A stretch of DNA of 51,893 bases from Candidatus Uhrbacteria bacterium RIFOXYB12_FULL_58_10 (GTDB taxonomy: Bacteria; Patescibacteriota; Patescibacteriia; UBA9934; GWF2-40-263), in the NCBI GenBank assembly GCA_943359455.1, contig CALRHL010000005.1:1-51893 (forward strand), written 5' to 3'. A program made the translations under genes and the position numbers. How positions within the stretch are numbered: position 1 is the first letter of the stretch; each line of letters begins with the position of its first letter. The notes beneath the pieces were generated by a model that saw only the letters and a program-made list of their open reading frames with translations, was not told the DNA's origin and did no database searches. Of this stretch, positions 4,963-15,455 are shown in pieces.

Positions 4963-4995
4963 AAAAACACCAGACTTGCGTCTGGCATTTTTGTG
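4963..4995 (-). terminator. Rho-independent terminator (minus strand)
   Basis: Read on the minus strand, CCAGAC-GCAA-GTCTGG (4970-4985) is followed by TGTTTTTGA. It sits about 95 nt beyond the stop of the small membrane-protein gene 5091-5414 and would end its transcript. Confidence 0.7.
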
Positions 4996-5090
4996 GTTCT
5001 GCGACCCGGTCTCGCTTGAGGCCTTTCAAGGGACTTACGAGCGACCTTCTCCCTGCTCGCCGACCCTGTTCCGGTCGGATAGAACTTGGG
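4987..5090. repeat. Dispersed ~100-nt repeat R1, copy 1
   Basis: Starts TTTTTGTGGTTCTGC and ends GGTCGGATAGAACTTGG. Related copies lie at 5662-5769 and 6978-7081. Copies 1 and 3 directly follow (on the minus strand) the stop codons of the duplicated membrane-protein genes, so they may be conserved 3' untranslated regions. Internal hairpin potential includes CCGACC/GGTCGG. Function unknown. Confidence 0.65.
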
Positions 5091-5414
5091 TTAAATTTTT
5101 CGTGGTTCTTGCTTTCCGATGCGTGTCGCGATGAGATAAAACAAGCCACTATAAAACGCTCCGGCCAGAAATGGCGTCACTTGTATTATCGTGGGATGCC
5201 AATCATATGAAATTAACCCATTGTCAGATCCATTTCCGGTAAGCATTGCACCAATGAGGAGAAATGGTAATTCCAACAGAAGACCGAGACCAAGTGGTAG
5301 AGCAACAATACTTTGTTCCAAAGGAGTTTCATCCCAATGAATCAAATTCGTCGCCAATACCAGAGCAAAAATAGCAGCAAATATCACTAAAGTAATAATT
5401 CTAAATTTTTTCAT
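5091..5414 (-). CDS. Small three-helix membrane protein, duplicate copy A
   Basis: A 107-aa protein starting MKKFRIITLVIF, with hydrophobic helices near residues 5-22, 39-62 and 82-100 and a polar loop HWDETPLEQ. ATG 5414 is chosen because the upstream codons diverge from copy B and an extended -10 (TGA-TAAACT) ends 8 nt before this ATG in both copies. It is about 87% identical to the product of 7084-7407. No family recognised. The flanking DNA (downstream R1 repeat, upstream palindrome pair) is duplicated with it. Confidence 0.65.
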   Translation of the reverse strand: MKKFRIITLVIFAAIFALVLATNLIHWDETPLEQSIVALPLGLGLLLELPFLLIGAMLTGNGSDNGLISYDWHPTIIQVTPFLAGAFYSGLFYLIATRIGKQEPRKI

Positions 5415-5422
5415 ATATACGG

Positions 5423-5431
5423 AGTTTATCA
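5423..5431 (-). promoter_or_regulatory. Extended -10 of a predicted leaderless promoter, copy A
   Basis: On the minus strand TGA-TAAACT is followed by 8 nt and then the ATG at 5414. The same arrangement is conserved at copy B (7416-7424) although nearby bases differ. Confidence 0.45.
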
Positions 5432-5482
5432 TGAAATCAAATTTTTGTAAGACAATCGAAAACCCACAATACCTAAGGGACC

Positions 5483-5611
5483 TGACCGTCACTTAGTGAC
5501 GGTCAAAACAGACGATGATCAAAATACATTTAGATAACGCTATAAAATAACAATGGAATTACAAGACAAACATCTAAAACGATCTGACCGTCACTAAGTG
5601 ACGGTCAGATC
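5483..5611. repeat. Element with two terminal perfect palindromes, copy A
   Basis: TGACCGTCACT-T-AGTGACGGTCA at 5483-5505 and the same motif with the opposite central base at 5585-5607 (extended to GATC...GATC, 5581-5611) flank about 79 nt of AT-rich sequence. The block is repeated almost exactly at 7520-7653. The palindromes could be operators upstream of the membrane-protein gene or the ends of a small non-autonomous mobile element. Confidence 0.75.
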
Positions 5612-6709: not shown

Positions 6710-6760
6710 AGAAGTTTTTAGAGTTTTTGATGTAGAAGGTAATAGGTAATTTAAGGATAA

Positions 6761-6793
6761 AATAACTCCACCCTCATTGGGTGGAGTTATTTT
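6761..6793 (+). terminator. Rho-independent terminator after the 5882-6709 gene
   Basis: AATAACTCCACCC and GGGTGGAGTTATT form a 13-bp perfect stem with a 5-nt loop, ending in TTATTTT. It can also act on the minus strand, where it follows directly on a tRNA-like CCA end at 6793. Confidence 0.8.
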
Positions 6794-6948
6794 GGTTCCG
6801 GGACGTGGAATCTTACTCGCAGACATTCAGAAAGATCATGTCTGTTCCTAAAGAGGGGTTTCCACCCCTCTTTAGATCTCCCCCATTAGCAGTGGGAACC
6901 TCCCGGTTCCCAAACCCTCCCCAGTTCGAATCCACGTCTCTCCAATAA
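6793..6948. other. Structured fold-back segment with tRNA 3'-end-like tips
   Basis: GGGACGTGGA (6801-6810) and TCCACGTCTC (6931-6940) pair over about 10 bp with a G-U. Inside are AAAGAGGGG/CCCCTCTTT (about 6850-6873) and TGGGAACC/GGTTCCCA. On the minus strand, 6793-6808 reads CCACGTCCCGGAACCA, nearly the tRNA-Gln 3' end; on the plus strand TTCGAATCCACG looks like a T loop. No cloverleaf can be completed. It may be a tRNA remnant, an integration scar or a non-coding RNA. Confidence 0.35.
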
Positions 6949-6988
6949 CCACAAAAATACCATTGCCTCAGCAGTGGTATTTTTGTGG
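6949..6988. terminator. Perfect 14-bp hairpin, probable terminator for copy B gene
   Basis: CCACAAAAATACCA (6949-6962) pairs perfectly with TGGTATTTTTGTGG (6975-6988) around a 12-nt loop. It lies downstream of 7084-7407 on the minus strand, in the position of the terminator at 4963-4995. Confidence 0.55.
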
Positions 6989-7081
6989 TTCTGCGGCCCG
7001 GTCTAGATTGAAGCCTTTGAGGGGACTTTGAGACACGCTTCTATACGCTCGTCGACCCTGTCCTGGTCGGATAGAACTTGG
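6978..7081. repeat. Dispersed repeat R1, copy 3
   Basis: Begins GTATTTTTGTGGTTCTGC and ends GGTCGGATAGAACTTGG, matching 4987-5090 at both ends with a more variable middle. It adjoins the stop of the copy B membrane-protein gene. Confidence 0.65.
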
Positions 7082-7083
7082 AG

Positions 7084-7407
7084 TTATATTTTTTTCAGTT
7101 CTTGCTTTTTTATGCGCGTTGCGATGAGATAAAACAAGCCGCTATAAAACGCTCCGGCCAGAAACGGCATCACTTGCATCATCGTGGTGTACCAATCATA
7201 TGAAATTAACCCATTGCCAGATCCGTTTTCGGTAAGCATTGCCCCAATCAAAAGAAAAGGTAATTCCAACAGAAGACCGAGACCAAGTGGTAGAGCGGCA
7301 ATACTTTGTTCCAAAGGAGTTTCATCCCAATGGATCAAATTCGTCGCCAATACCAAAGCAAAGATCGCAACAAATATCACCAAAGTAATAATTTTAACTT
7401 TTTTCAT
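7084..7407 (-). CDS. Small three-helix membrane protein, duplicate copy B
   Basis: A 107-aa paralog of 5091-5414 starting MKKVKIITLVIF, with the same three hydrophobic helices and the same HWDETPLEQ loop. Differences are scattered single substitutions. Both frames are intact, so both copies are probably expressed or recently so. The start at ATG 7407 is supported by the conserved extended -10 (TGA-TAAACT) ending 8 nt upstream. Function unknown. Confidence 0.65.
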   Translation of the reverse strand: MKKVKIITLVIFVAIFALVLATNLIHWDETPLEQSIAALPLGLGLLLELPFLLIGAMLTENGSGNGLISYDWYTTMMQVMPFLAGAFYSGLFYLIATRIKKQELKKI

Positions 7408-7415
7408 ATATACGG

Positions 7416-7424
7416 AGTTTATCA
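7416..7424 (-). promoter_or_regulatory. Extended -10 of a predicted leaderless promoter, copy B
   Basis: On the minus strand TGA-TAAACT, then 8 nt, then the ATG at 7407. It duplicates the arrangement at 5423-5431. Confidence 0.45.
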
Positions 7425-7519
7425 CGACATCGGATTTTTGTAAGACAATCGAAAACCCACATCCCATGAAGAATGCGGGTTTTCTTGGTCACACCCTGTC
7501 CCGGTAGTAGGAACGGACC

Positions 7520-7653
7520 TGACCGTCACTTAGTGACGGTCAAAACAGACGATGATCAAAATACATTTAGATAACGCTATAAAATAACAATAGAATTACA
7601 AGAAAAACATCTAAAGCGATCTGACCGTCACTAAGTGACGGTCAGATCGCTTT
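7520..7653. repeat. Element with two terminal perfect palindromes, copy B
   Basis: The palindromes are at 7520-7542 and 7622-7644; the second extends to 20-bp arms around one central base (7613-7653, AAAGCGATCTGACCGTCACT and its complement). The AT-rich interior is nearly identical to 5506-5580. The rest of 7654-7736 shows no gene. Confidence 0.75.
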
Positions 7654-9456: not shown

Positions 9457-9536
9457 CATCAACGAATGATTTGTCAACGGGGATGATTTACGTAACGGAC
9501 GCGATCCTTTGACTCACTTCGCTCGCTCAGGACAAA

Positions 9537-9566
9537 ATAACACCACCTATTACGAGTGGTGTTTTG
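9537..9566 (-). terminator. Terminator after tRNA-Gln copy 1
   Basis: On the minus strand AACACCACTC...AGGTGGTGTTATTTTG: an imperfect copy of the terminator at 9705-9738, duplicated with the tRNA. Confidence 0.6.
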
Positions 9567-9567
9567 A

Positions 9568-9690
9568 TGGTTCCGGGACATGGATTCGAACCATGATTAA
9601 GGGATTCAGAGTCCCTCGTCCCCTCGGCCGTAGACCGTAGGCTTGCAAGTCTCCGGCCTACGGGCGAGGCTGCCGTTAGACGATCCCAGA
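9568..9690 (-). tRNA. tRNA-Gln (CUG) copy 1, with a 49-nt hairpin in the D loop
   Basis: The 3' 53 nt (anticodon arm with loop CTCTGAA, T arm, acceptor strand, encoded CCA) are identical to copy 2. Between GTCTAACGGCAG and GAC, inside the D loop, there are 49 extra nt (9621-9669). The D stem is preserved. The acceptor 5' strand is TCTGGGA, still pairing with TCCCGGA through one U-G. It is either a tRNA with a grossly enlarged D arm or a pseudogene; the intact copy beside it would relax selection. Confidence 0.7.
9621..9669. repeat. 49-nt palindromic insert within tRNA-Gln copy 1
   Basis: CCTCGGCCGTAG (9622-9633) and CTACGGGCGAGG (9658-9669) pair over 12 positions with one mismatch. A nested alternative pairing uses CCGTAGGC and GCCTACGG. 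Removing exactly 49 nt restores the copy 2 sequence. Confidence 0.8.
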
Positions 9691-9704
9691 TGAGGAAGAT
9701 ATGA

Positions 9705-9738
9705 TCAAAACACCACTCAATTACGAGTGGTGTTTTGA
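9705..9738 (-). terminator. Terminator after tRNA-Gln copy 2
   Basis: TCAAAACACCACTC and GAGTGGTGTTTTGA form a 14-bp perfect stem with a 6-nt loop directly downstream (minus strand) of the tRNA 3' end. Confidence 0.8.
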
Positions 9739-9812
9739 TGGTTCCGGGACATGGATTCGAACCATGATTAAGGGATTCAGAGTCCCTCGTCCTGCCGTTA
9801 GACGATCCCGGA
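9739..9812 (-). tRNA. tRNA-Gln (anticodon CUG), intact copy
   Basis: A complete 74-nt cloverleaf: acceptor TCCGGGA/TCCCGGA, D arm GTC-TAACGGCAG-GAC, anticodon arm AGGGA-CTCTGAA-TCCCT with CTG at 34-36, T arm CATGG-TTCGAAT-CCATG, discriminator A and encoded CCA. It reads CAG codons. A perfect terminator follows. Copy 1 is a tandem duplicate. Confidence 0.93.
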
Positions 9813-9936
9813 AGATGTATTTTGGTCGAATGTTAGCATAGGATCTCTTAAGTTGGCAACAGATTCTTGCGTGGTATTTTGGATTGATGTAGGGTTTATA
9901 CCATCTCCAATTAACGCTTCGGCATAGCCCATTCAC

Positions 9937-10016
9937 AATTGAGGCGAGACGAAGAGAAAAGTCTGAAGCGTATCCGTAGATACGTTGAAGACTTTTCTCG
10001 AAGTCGGAGCTCAATT
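9937..10016. repeat. 80-nt long imperfect palindrome
   Basis: AATTGAG (9937-9943) and CTCAATT (10010-10016) bound nested arms GAGAAAAGTCT (9954-9964) / AGACTTTTCTC (9989-9999) and CGTATC/GATACG. It folds into one long hairpin and lies upstream of the 10036 gene. It could be a palindromic repeat of the invading type or a terminator-like structure. The rest of 9813-9936 holds no gene. Confidence 0.65.
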
Positions 10017-10035
10017 TTGGACGGGATGGTGCCGG

Positions 10036-10488
10036 ATGGTTAGTTGGAAATGGTATTACATGGAGGTGGTTTTGCTCTCTTCAATCATTCGTTGTGTGGC
10101 TGGTGCTGGGATCGGACTTGCGATTTCTATCGTCTGGTGGCAGTGGTTACTCTACTGGGTCCCGTTCAATTCGAACTATCCCAATCGTCTGGACGAAATC
10201 AACCGGTTCTTCCCGTTCGTTCTCGTGTTCGGGGTTCTGATAGGGTTGGCGTCGGCACTGCCTCGTGGGTCGATAGGGATCCCATGGAAACGTTTGCGGA
10301 TTGCCGTCATCACTATGTTCGTCATTTTGATGCCACCGCTCTCCGGATATGTCGACACGCTGTCGCCCGCCCAGCAAATGTTCGTCCTACCTGCGTTGCT
10401 GATATGCGTCCTCATCCTCCCCGATCTCGTCCTCCTCGTCGTTGGACTGGCGCATAGACGGTTCGTTGCTTCAAAACCTTCGTCCTAA
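10036..10488 (+). CDS. Hypothetical integral membrane protein
   Basis: A 150-aa protein from ATG 10036, with hydrophobic helices near residues 10-35, 58-75, 90-105 and 118-138, and a basic C-terminal tail (AHRRF). No family recognised. An upstream ATG at 9985 lies inside the 80-nt palindrome and is less likely; ATG 10060 is a further alternative. It has higher GC than its neighbours and is followed by its own terminator, so it is probably monocistronic. Confidence 0.6.
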   Translation: MVSWKWYYMEVVLLSSIIRCVAGAGIGLAISIVWWQWLLYWVPFNSNYPNRLDEINRFFPFVLVFGVLIGLASALPRGSIGIPWKRLRIAVITMFVILMPPLSGYVDTLSPAQQMFVLPALLICVLILPDLVLLVVGLAHRRFVASKPSS

Positions 10489-14576: not shown

Positions 14577-14605
14577 TTGTATCGTGTATTATATTTTTGT
14601 ATAAT
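14577..14605 (+). promoter_or_regulatory. Strong predicted leaderless promoter for endonuclease-lepA
   Basis: TTGTAT (14577-14582), a 17-nt spacer, TATAAT (14600-14605), then only 7 nt to the ATG at 14613. It is the only clear promoter upstream of lepA, so lepA probably depends on read-through of the endonuclease gene. Confidence 0.65.
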
Positions 14606-14612
14606 TGCACAT

Positions 14613-15455
14613 ATGGGAAGGTATAAAATTCCAATTACTAAACAGAAGTTGATCCGGCTCTACATTGATAAAAAACTTACGCCGCAGAAGATCGGAGAGT
14701 TGCTTGGGTGCAGTTTTGCGACAGTACGTAATAGAATGAAAGAGTTTGGGATAACGTTTCGTAGACCATCGATTGCTCGTCAGAGATTTGATAAAAAGGA
14801 CTTTAGCGGTGATCCTGTCGAAGAAGCATATCTGATCGGGTTTCGAGTCGGTGATTTAAATGTGTATGTTCCTAATCTCCAGACTTCAAATACACTTGTA
14901 GCACGTTGTCATACAACGGATATCCCGCAGGTGAAGCTCATGAAAGCAATTTTTTCTCAGTATGGAGCCGTTCGTGTGAGTAAGTCGATTCATGGATATT
15001 CTATTAATTGTTATTTGAATCGCTCTTTTGATTTTCTTCTGCCAAAAAAAAGACCAGAGCGAATCGATGGAGAGATGAAGGTCGTAGCGGCATTTGTTGC
15101 TGGATACGTGGATGCAGAAGGGAATTTTATCGTGAATCAAGGTAGGGGTCGCTTTAAGCTTGATTCGTATGATGTTGATGTATTATTTTGGATGGATAAT
15201 TGGTTGAAAAGACAGAATATTAAATCATTATTTCGTCAAATTGCCAGAAAAGGCGACACACAATATATTCGAGGAAAACTCGGTTATTTTCATGAAAATT
15301 TATGGAGGATAAATGTGAATGAGGCAAAATCACTCAAGAGATTTATTGGGTTTATTTTGCCTTATCTGAAACATTCACGTAGAATCCAACAAGCGAAGCA
15401 AATGTTGGCTAATATTGAAGCGAGAATTCGCTATGGATCAGTCAAAGATTCGTAA
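14613..15455 (+). CDS. Free-standing LAGLIDADG homing endonuclease with HTH
   Basis: A 280-aa protein. Residues 5-45 form a helix-turn-helix (KLTPQKIGELLGCSFATVRNR). Two LAGLIDADG helices follow: AYLIGFRVGDLNV (about 72-84) and FVAGYVDAEGNF (about 160-171), each with its acidic residue, so it is probably catalytically competent as a monomer. Such enzymes cut a long DNA site and spread themselves. It is not inside an intron or intein here; its 3' end overlaps the lepA start by 23 nt. ATG 14613 is chosen over codons upstream because the promoter overlaps them. Confidence 0.87.
   Translation: MGRYKIPITKQKLIRLYIDKKLTPQKIGELLGCSFATVRNRMKEFGITFRRPSIARQRFDKKDFSGDPVEEAYLIGFRVGDLNVYVPNLQTSNTLVARCHTTDIPQVKLMKAIFSQYGAVRVSKSIHGYSINCYLNRSFDFLLPKKRPERIDGEMKVVAAFVAGYVDAEGNFIVNQGRGRFKLDSYDVDVLFWMDNWLKRQNIKSLFRQIARKGDTQYIRGKLGYFHENLWRINVNEAKSLKRFIGFILPYLKHSRRIQQAKQMLANIEARIRYGSVKDS

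Follow-up and report, generated by a model that had tools for sequence, protein, structure and literature searches.

A tRNA-Gln gene interrupted by a hairpin beside an intact copy in a Candidatus Uhrbacteria genome, and similarly broken tRNA genes in related bacteria

Introduction

The genome of Candidatus Uhrbacteria bacterium RIFOXYB12_FULL_58_10 (Patescibacteriota; Patescibacteriia; UBA9934; GWF2-40-263; assembly GCA_943359455.1) contains two tRNA-Gln(CUG) genes in tandem, one of which carries a hairpin within its D loop. The window analysed here is the whole of contig CALRHL010000005.1 (51,893 nt, hereafter C5), one of 44 contigs of a 1.07-Mb assembly that is 97.7 % complete, and essentially the whole genome (G000) was collected. 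The locus raises the question of whether the interrupted gene, hereafter copy 1, still yields a tRNA, with or without removal of the hairpin, or is dead, and of how the hairpin came to lie next to an intact gene of the same kind. With moderate confidence, copy 1 is read here as a displaced, most likely dead tRNA-Gln whose D loop was hit by a hairpin element and whose neighbour works, and as one instance of a pattern that recurs in this small-genome phylum (Patescibacteria/CPR): tRNA genes are broken at their loops by hairpin elements, and beside or within the broken gene stands an intact one for the same tRNA.

Results

Layout of the tandem tRNA-Gln genes

The locus comprises the following features.

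9739-9812, minus strand: intact tRNA-Gln(CUG), 74 nt with encoded CCA, found with ARAGORN and Rfam; identical to the single syntenic gene of a sister genome, G003
9568-9690, minus strand: interrupted second tRNA-Gln(CUG), copy 1, with its 5' part at 9670-9690 and its 3' part at 9568-9621
9622-9670, minus strand: 49-nt palindromic hairpin between A21 and the 3' side of the D stem, boundaries ambiguous by 1 nt
9704-9739, minus strand: between the two copies, an inverted repeat of 15 perfect base pairs and a T run, putative intrinsic terminator of the intact copy
9539-9563, minus strand: terminator-like hairpin downstream of copy 1
9830-9859, minus strand: promoter-like TTGCCA-18-TAACAT with extended -10, upstream of the intact copy, a consensus match only

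Read along the minus strand, the intact gene is followed by the terminator hairpin, about 13 bases and then copy 1. The copies are defined by an exact direct repeat of 73 nt (9549-9621 and 9720-9792) and a second repeat of 24 nt (9670-9693 and 9792-9815), and the length of copy 1, 123 nt, equals the 74 nt of the intact gene plus 49 nt. From position 4 to the terminator loop the two match exactly, apart from the 49-nt insertion, and the sole difference within the tRNA outside the insert is at the acceptor start, UCU in copy 1 versus UCC in the intact copy, with a U3-G70 pair kept. The D stem of copy 1 still pairs around the insert, and the paired stems, G18G19, the T arm, the anticodon and the CCA are retained. 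An initial annotation of this DNA had described tandem copies that are equal except for the acceptor 5' side and one clean palindromic insertion leaving the D stem paired, with an intact spare copy adjoining; the repeats and the pairing confirm this description.

Scoring of both copies with covariance models, which the initial annotation had proposed, separated them. With the Rfam tRNA model the intact copy scored 61.4 bits and copy 1 27.5 bits, under the gathering score of 29, and with a tRNA-Gln model built from 18 relatives the scores were 102.2 and 55.1 bits, respectively. ARAGORN predicted the intact copy and not copy 1. The hairpin at 9704-9739 was absent from the list produced by a terminator scan, and consensus matching revealed no promoter-like site upstream of copy 1. 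An imperfect 160-nt inverted repeat (71 %), a large potential hairpin, is found upstream of the tRNA pair at 9898-10056.

The 49-nt hairpin

The insert is a 48-nt palindrome without spacer, in which 20 of the 24 pairs are Watson-Crick and one is G-U. Folded as RNA with a flanking base it has a minimum free energy of -29.2 kcal/mol (z = -4.0), a value equalled by none of 200 shuffles; equally stable folds were found in 10 of 20,000 random 49-nt windows of the genome, i.e. the insert exceeds 99.95 % of them. A search of its own genome, as had been suggested earlier, found the 49-nt sequence to be unique, the best other exact match being 11 nt, the same as for shuffles. No second copy was found in 379 sampled genomes of the phylum or in viral contigs, and even with as many as 3 mismatches allowed over 29 nt the other 378 of these genomes gave no match. 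The whole 131-nt locus, sought in plasmids, gave chance tRNA similarity only.

Several candidate sources and identities were rejected. The longest match to local sequence was 11 nt, not above shuffles. Snap-back synthesis would yield an almost perfect palindrome when recent; it was rejected, as 4 of the 24 positions are imperfect here while the surrounding tRNA is unchanged. Rfam returned nothing above its gathering scores for the insert, and a self-splicing group I intron does not fit a simple 49-nt hairpin with no intron family match at 9500-9850. A dispersed palindromic element family of the RPE or REP type needs several genomic copies and the sequence is single-copy. As for movement as a REP by a RAYT (Y1/HUH) transposase, a motif scan of the open frames gave just four implausible matches. 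The insert is short and lies in a loop, the D loop, of a structured RNA gene, as is typical of the insertions in CPR rRNA genes considered below. That no second copy turned up in any sequence searched counts against mobility of this insert, which may nevertheless have arrived by a route such as that proposed below.

History of the locus

The sister genome G003, of the same genus, has at the syntenic place a single uninterrupted tRNA-Gln, identical to the intact copy at 74 of 74 positions, with the Dus, MBL-fold and lepA genes downstream of it as in the window. In the order, 71 other genomes were examined and all lack an insertion in the D loop of tRNA-Gln(CUG). The duplication and the insertion are therefore derived, and the possibility that the insertion is an ancestral part of this tRNA, which the initial annotation had kept in view, is contradicted.

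The locus is an eventful one, and two further traces were found in the window.

6793-6812, minus strand: 20-nt tRNA-Gln 3'-end fragment, from the T loop to the CCA, with a terminator-like hairpin at 6759-6793
7446-7514, plus strand: relic of the sequence that immediately adjoins tRNA-Gln at its 3' end in G003, with 90 % identity over 70 nt

The fragment at 6793-6812 is an older scar at this locus. The two traces were also considered as possible signs of a larger element integrated at the tRNA 3' end, for which a recombinase would be expected; none was recognised in the window, and a serine recombinase at the flank in G003, suspected from a zinc-ribbon motif, has no Pfam support. At loci L038, L045, L054 and L039 (genomes G003, G004, G015 and G059, respectively) the 3' end of tRNA-Gln, or a 3' fragment of it, is adjoined by nearly the same stretch, CGACCTGTTCCTACAGACCGGGACAGGGGGTGACC; this stretch spans two families, and in G059 it bears a hairpin insertion of its own.

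Broken tRNA-Gln genes in related genomes

A tRNA-Gln search was carried out over 380 genomes of the class, 20 of which were re-listed completely, and the loci were then read; broken copies were detected by BLAST combined with this non-blind reading. At least 17 of the 380 genomes, i.e. that of the window and at least 16 relatives, have a broken tRNA-Gln beside or wrapped around an intact one, and the breaks almost always carry hairpins. The layouts were as follows.

Layout a, tandem copy whose D loop holds the hairpin, like that of the window: G470, G610, G522 and G353; with the break one base into the D stem: G534 and G740
Layout b, fragments ending with a hairpin in the anticodon loop: G607, G523 and G076
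Layout c, intact tRNA nested in a split outer tRNA: split in the anticodon loop in G627 and G611, in the T loop in G722, G488 and G530

In layout c the inner tRNA usually has an inverted repeat that lengthens its acceptor stem. In G530 and G611 the inner and outer sequences differ, so the inner tRNA is not a fresh copy of the outer one. The initial annotation had taken the locus as a short palindrome entering an RNA gene next to a spare; the clean insertion and the spare stand, but the event is not a lone one, as the architecture recurs in these relatives and in other tRNAs. The pattern is patchy: in a relative taken without selection, none of the 15 tRNAs read over 400 kb had a broken copy next to it.

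Next to these cases from the class, a tRNA-Gln 5' fragment of Ca. Magasanikbacteria GW2011_GWC2_37_14 contains a palindrome of 39 nt, which is one member of a family dispersed over about 32 sites of that genome; a reversed control pattern had no sites. The one match to the D-loop-insertion pattern among 84,980 genomes was a tandem fragment with a palindrome in another part of it and not a D-loop insertion. G418 and G600, which seemed to have split copies in the BLAST table, were left out of the count after the hit spacing indicated divergent tRNAs of normal length. In G534 (L184:1277-1520) two tandem 112-nt units, each of a tRNA-Gln 5' fragment, a double hairpin and a spacer, precede the intact gene, as if insertion had been repeated at one site, and G740 has a similar double hairpin whose stems are different.

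Other tRNAs and the position of the breaks

A second case occurs in the window's own genome, where a tRNA-Asn 5' fragment with a double hairpin lies 87 nt before an intact tRNA-Asn. The fragment (contig C31, 10418-10579; L126) has the double hairpin CCAGCCATCAGGCTGGTCAGCCTCTGGCTGA followed by 7 nt of the anticodon arm, and contig C31 ends exactly at the intact gene. A decayed copy of tRNA-Ser(GGA) is also found in this genome, at 36168-36241 of contig C8, 1.4 kb from the intact gene. In G610, of which 97 % was read, broken neighbours accompany Thr-CGU, Thr-GGU, Ile-UAU and Arg-UCU, and probably also Leu-CAA and Ser-GGA. A two-hairpin element, CCTA..TCCA..TGGACGGCCCGTTCGAG..CTCGAA..TAGG, occurs exactly three times in the 97 % of this genome, each time directly 3' of G18G19, in the D loop of the Ile-UAU, Thr-GGU and Thr-CGU fragments.

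Thirty-six breaks were assigned to positions by hand, and the statistics on them are exploratory. Of these breaks 26 lie in or border the D, anticodon or T loop, against an expected 34 % (p ~3e-6), and when one break per genome was taken 14 of 22 were in loops (p = 0.004). Seventeen of 20 inserts that were folded had z <= -2.4.

These observations bear on the main rival explanation, that two unrelated events took place, an ordinary tandem duplication and then the chance landing of a palindrome in the redundant copy, where it was tolerated as a pseudogene. Apart from the insert copy 1 is a plain tandem duplicate, the genome holds at least six dispersed palindrome families, and the element is unique, all of which would fit this account. 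It is nevertheless considered unlikely, since none of the 20 completely listed genomes has a tandem pair of two intact tRNA-Gln genes while hairpin-broken copies are common, the breaks favour loops, and in G610 three tRNAs carry a single element at the same position of the D loop. The last of these is the strongest evidence for a putative site-specific element over chance.

Fate of the interrupted copy

The host genome has 43 tRNA genes, among them one intact tRNA-Gln(CUG) and one intact tRNA-Gln(UUG). GatB is encoded and no GlnRS scored above its cutoff, so charging of tRNA-Gln is probably via GatCAB. GatCAB of other bacteria senses the D loop.

Death of the gene, which the initial annotation had listed as one option beside tolerance and removal of the hairpin, is a live option and a likely outcome, because copy 1 lies behind a terminator and has no promoter-like site; it would then be either untranscribed or uncharged. 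Its conserved stems, CCA and anticodon speak against reading it as a relic. They would instead suit an excised intervening sequence, in which RNase III, whose gene is present in the host genome, removes the hairpin and leaves a working tRNA nicked in the D loop. The stem of about 21 bp, stacking on the D stem, would be a plausible substrate, and hairpin insertions are excised in some bacterial 23S rRNAs. This alternative is quite improbable, given the position of copy 1 behind the terminator and without a promoter-like site and the fact that in G470 and G610, the most similar relatives, the downstream copy lacks the acceptor 5' strand and would give no mature tRNA even if the hairpin were excised.

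It is very improbable that copy 1 works as a tRNA despite its enlarged D arm, possibly charged in a different way. Retention of G18G19, the D stem, the acceptor, the T arm and the anticodon would allow it, but the probable charging by GatCAB, with the D-loop sensing known elsewhere, the fall in model score from 102 to 55 bits and the lack of such a D loop in all 71 other genomes of the order argue against it. An artefact of assembly or binning, conceivable with an incomplete assembly of 44 contigs, can hardly account for copies separated by about 30 nt of unique sequence, with unique flanks and an exact repeat of just 73 nt, and for the same kind of structure in independent genomes.

GIY-YIG genes near broken tRNAs

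Small GIY-YIG proteins (Pfam PF01541, well over the cutoff) are encoded inside or adjoining the modules in three genomes.

G610: GIY-YIG gene between a broken and an intact tRNA-Thr(GGU), its frame running into the tRNA
G076: GIY-YIG gene separating the inner intact tRNA-Gln from the 5' fragment of the outer one, flanked by matching double hairpins
G534: GIY-YIG gene just downstream of the intact gene

A motif search of the window's genome gave four GIY-YIG frames, and two of these are no more than 400 nt from a tRNA (p = 0.006).

Contig C8, 37873-38121: GIY-YIG ORF, 130 nt after the intact tRNA-Ser(GGA)
Contig C1, 102791-103087: GIY-YIG ORF, 370 nt from tRNA-Ala(CGC)

No GIY-YIG gene was present within several kb of the tRNA-Gln pair in the window, and the element there would thus need a GIY-YIG enzyme in trans or would have lost it.

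Discussion

To return to the reading of copy 1 as a displaced tRNA-Gln hit by a hairpin element, the break is proposed to be made in the loop of a tRNA gene by a GIY-YIG homing endonuclease, acting in cis or in trans, and would be repaired with a hairpin element, alone or together with a GIY-YIG gene. Since most tRNAs have a single gene in these genomes, only events that keep or bring an intact copy would survive, and the insertion and the gain of the intact copy may accordingly have been one self-compensating event. The old copy would stay as a relic with the hairpin in its loop, by which the cutting site would be destroyed too. Copy 1 of the window would be a small, probably non-autonomous or decayed member.

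A broader suggestion, offered tentatively as a possibility, is that CPR bacteria harbour a class of mobile elements that home into tRNA loops, consist of one or two hairpins with or without a GIY-YIG gene and carry a replacement for the destroyed tRNA or part of it, the pair in the window being a non-autonomous or relic member. If this is true, hits in essential single-copy tRNA genes would be survivable, and there would be a testable account of how essential RNA genes can be targeted by homing elements at a bearable cost. Genes for tRNAs are usually viewed as docking sites for large integrating elements which rebuild the end of the gene; in these bacteria tRNA loops appear to be broken repeatedly by tiny hairpins and by small modules with an endonuclease, an intact copy always being left or supplied. 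The pattern would account for tRNA fragments in these genomes, and it would be a caution that broken copies are overlooked or misread by automatic tRNA annotation.

The Rickettsia palindromic elements and the hairpin intervening sequences of 23S rRNA are short palindromes that lie within working genes, some of them RNA genes. The element of the window differs from both in being single-copy and in a redundant gene copy, and its excision is hypothetical. No published description of hairpin-broken tRNA genes beside an intact copy was found in the open-access literature. The nearest parallel is in the same bacterial group, where many of the insertion sequences in CPR rRNA genes are short (<200 bp), without ORF and without an intron match, lie mostly at the top or base of stem-loops and in some cases encode LAGLIDADG or GIY-YIG endonucleases (PMC11270868). 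Their targets are rRNAs, whereas the insertions described here are in tRNA genes and come with an intact gene of the same kind next to or within the broken one; the words 'tRNA', 'palindrom' and 'hairpin' do not occur in the main text of that paper. Functional parallels are provided by SegB of phage T4, a free-standing GIY-YIG homing endonuclease encoded between tRNA genes, whose target is a tRNA region and which promotes inheritance of these genes (PMC2988022), and by a disrupted tRNA-Thr of Caldiarchaeum, where a 5' fragment next to an intact gene for the same tRNA was ascribed to a mobile element (PMC3293823). The former concerns a phage tRNA cluster with neither hairpin insertion nor split tRNA, while the window has no adjacent GIY-YIG gene; in the latter, an archaeal case, a recombinase element of 1.8 kb is involved, the introns are spliced and such hairpin insertions are absent.

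Other repeats and mobile sequences in the host genome

Several further sequences of this genome were recorded in the course of the analysis. An 84-nt hairpin is present in about nine copies (C8:19240, C9:28889, C33:1658, C4:11708, C17:21943, C24:14129, C9:33693, C8:36414 and C3:35710) with a constant core resembling GATGATATGCAGATATCA and an outer stem that seems to covary; it seems to be a dispersed RNA or palindromic element. In the window, 4983-5611 and 6975-7648 form a duplicated cassette, 84 % identical, with an ORF for a small membrane protein and a pair of palindromes, TGACCGTCACTAAGTGACGGTCA, about 100 nt apart, and the palindrome pair is found again on other contigs. A group I intron (Rfam 62 bits) at L130:4328-4514 on contig C35 is followed by a 3' tRNA half ending in CCCCGCAACCA, probably together an intron-containing initiator tRNA-Met that was missed by ARAGORN. 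Finally, an ORF resembling LAGLIDADG homing endonucleases, with a helix-turn-helix (HTH), lies at 14577-15455 of the window, directly upstream of lepA and overlapping it.
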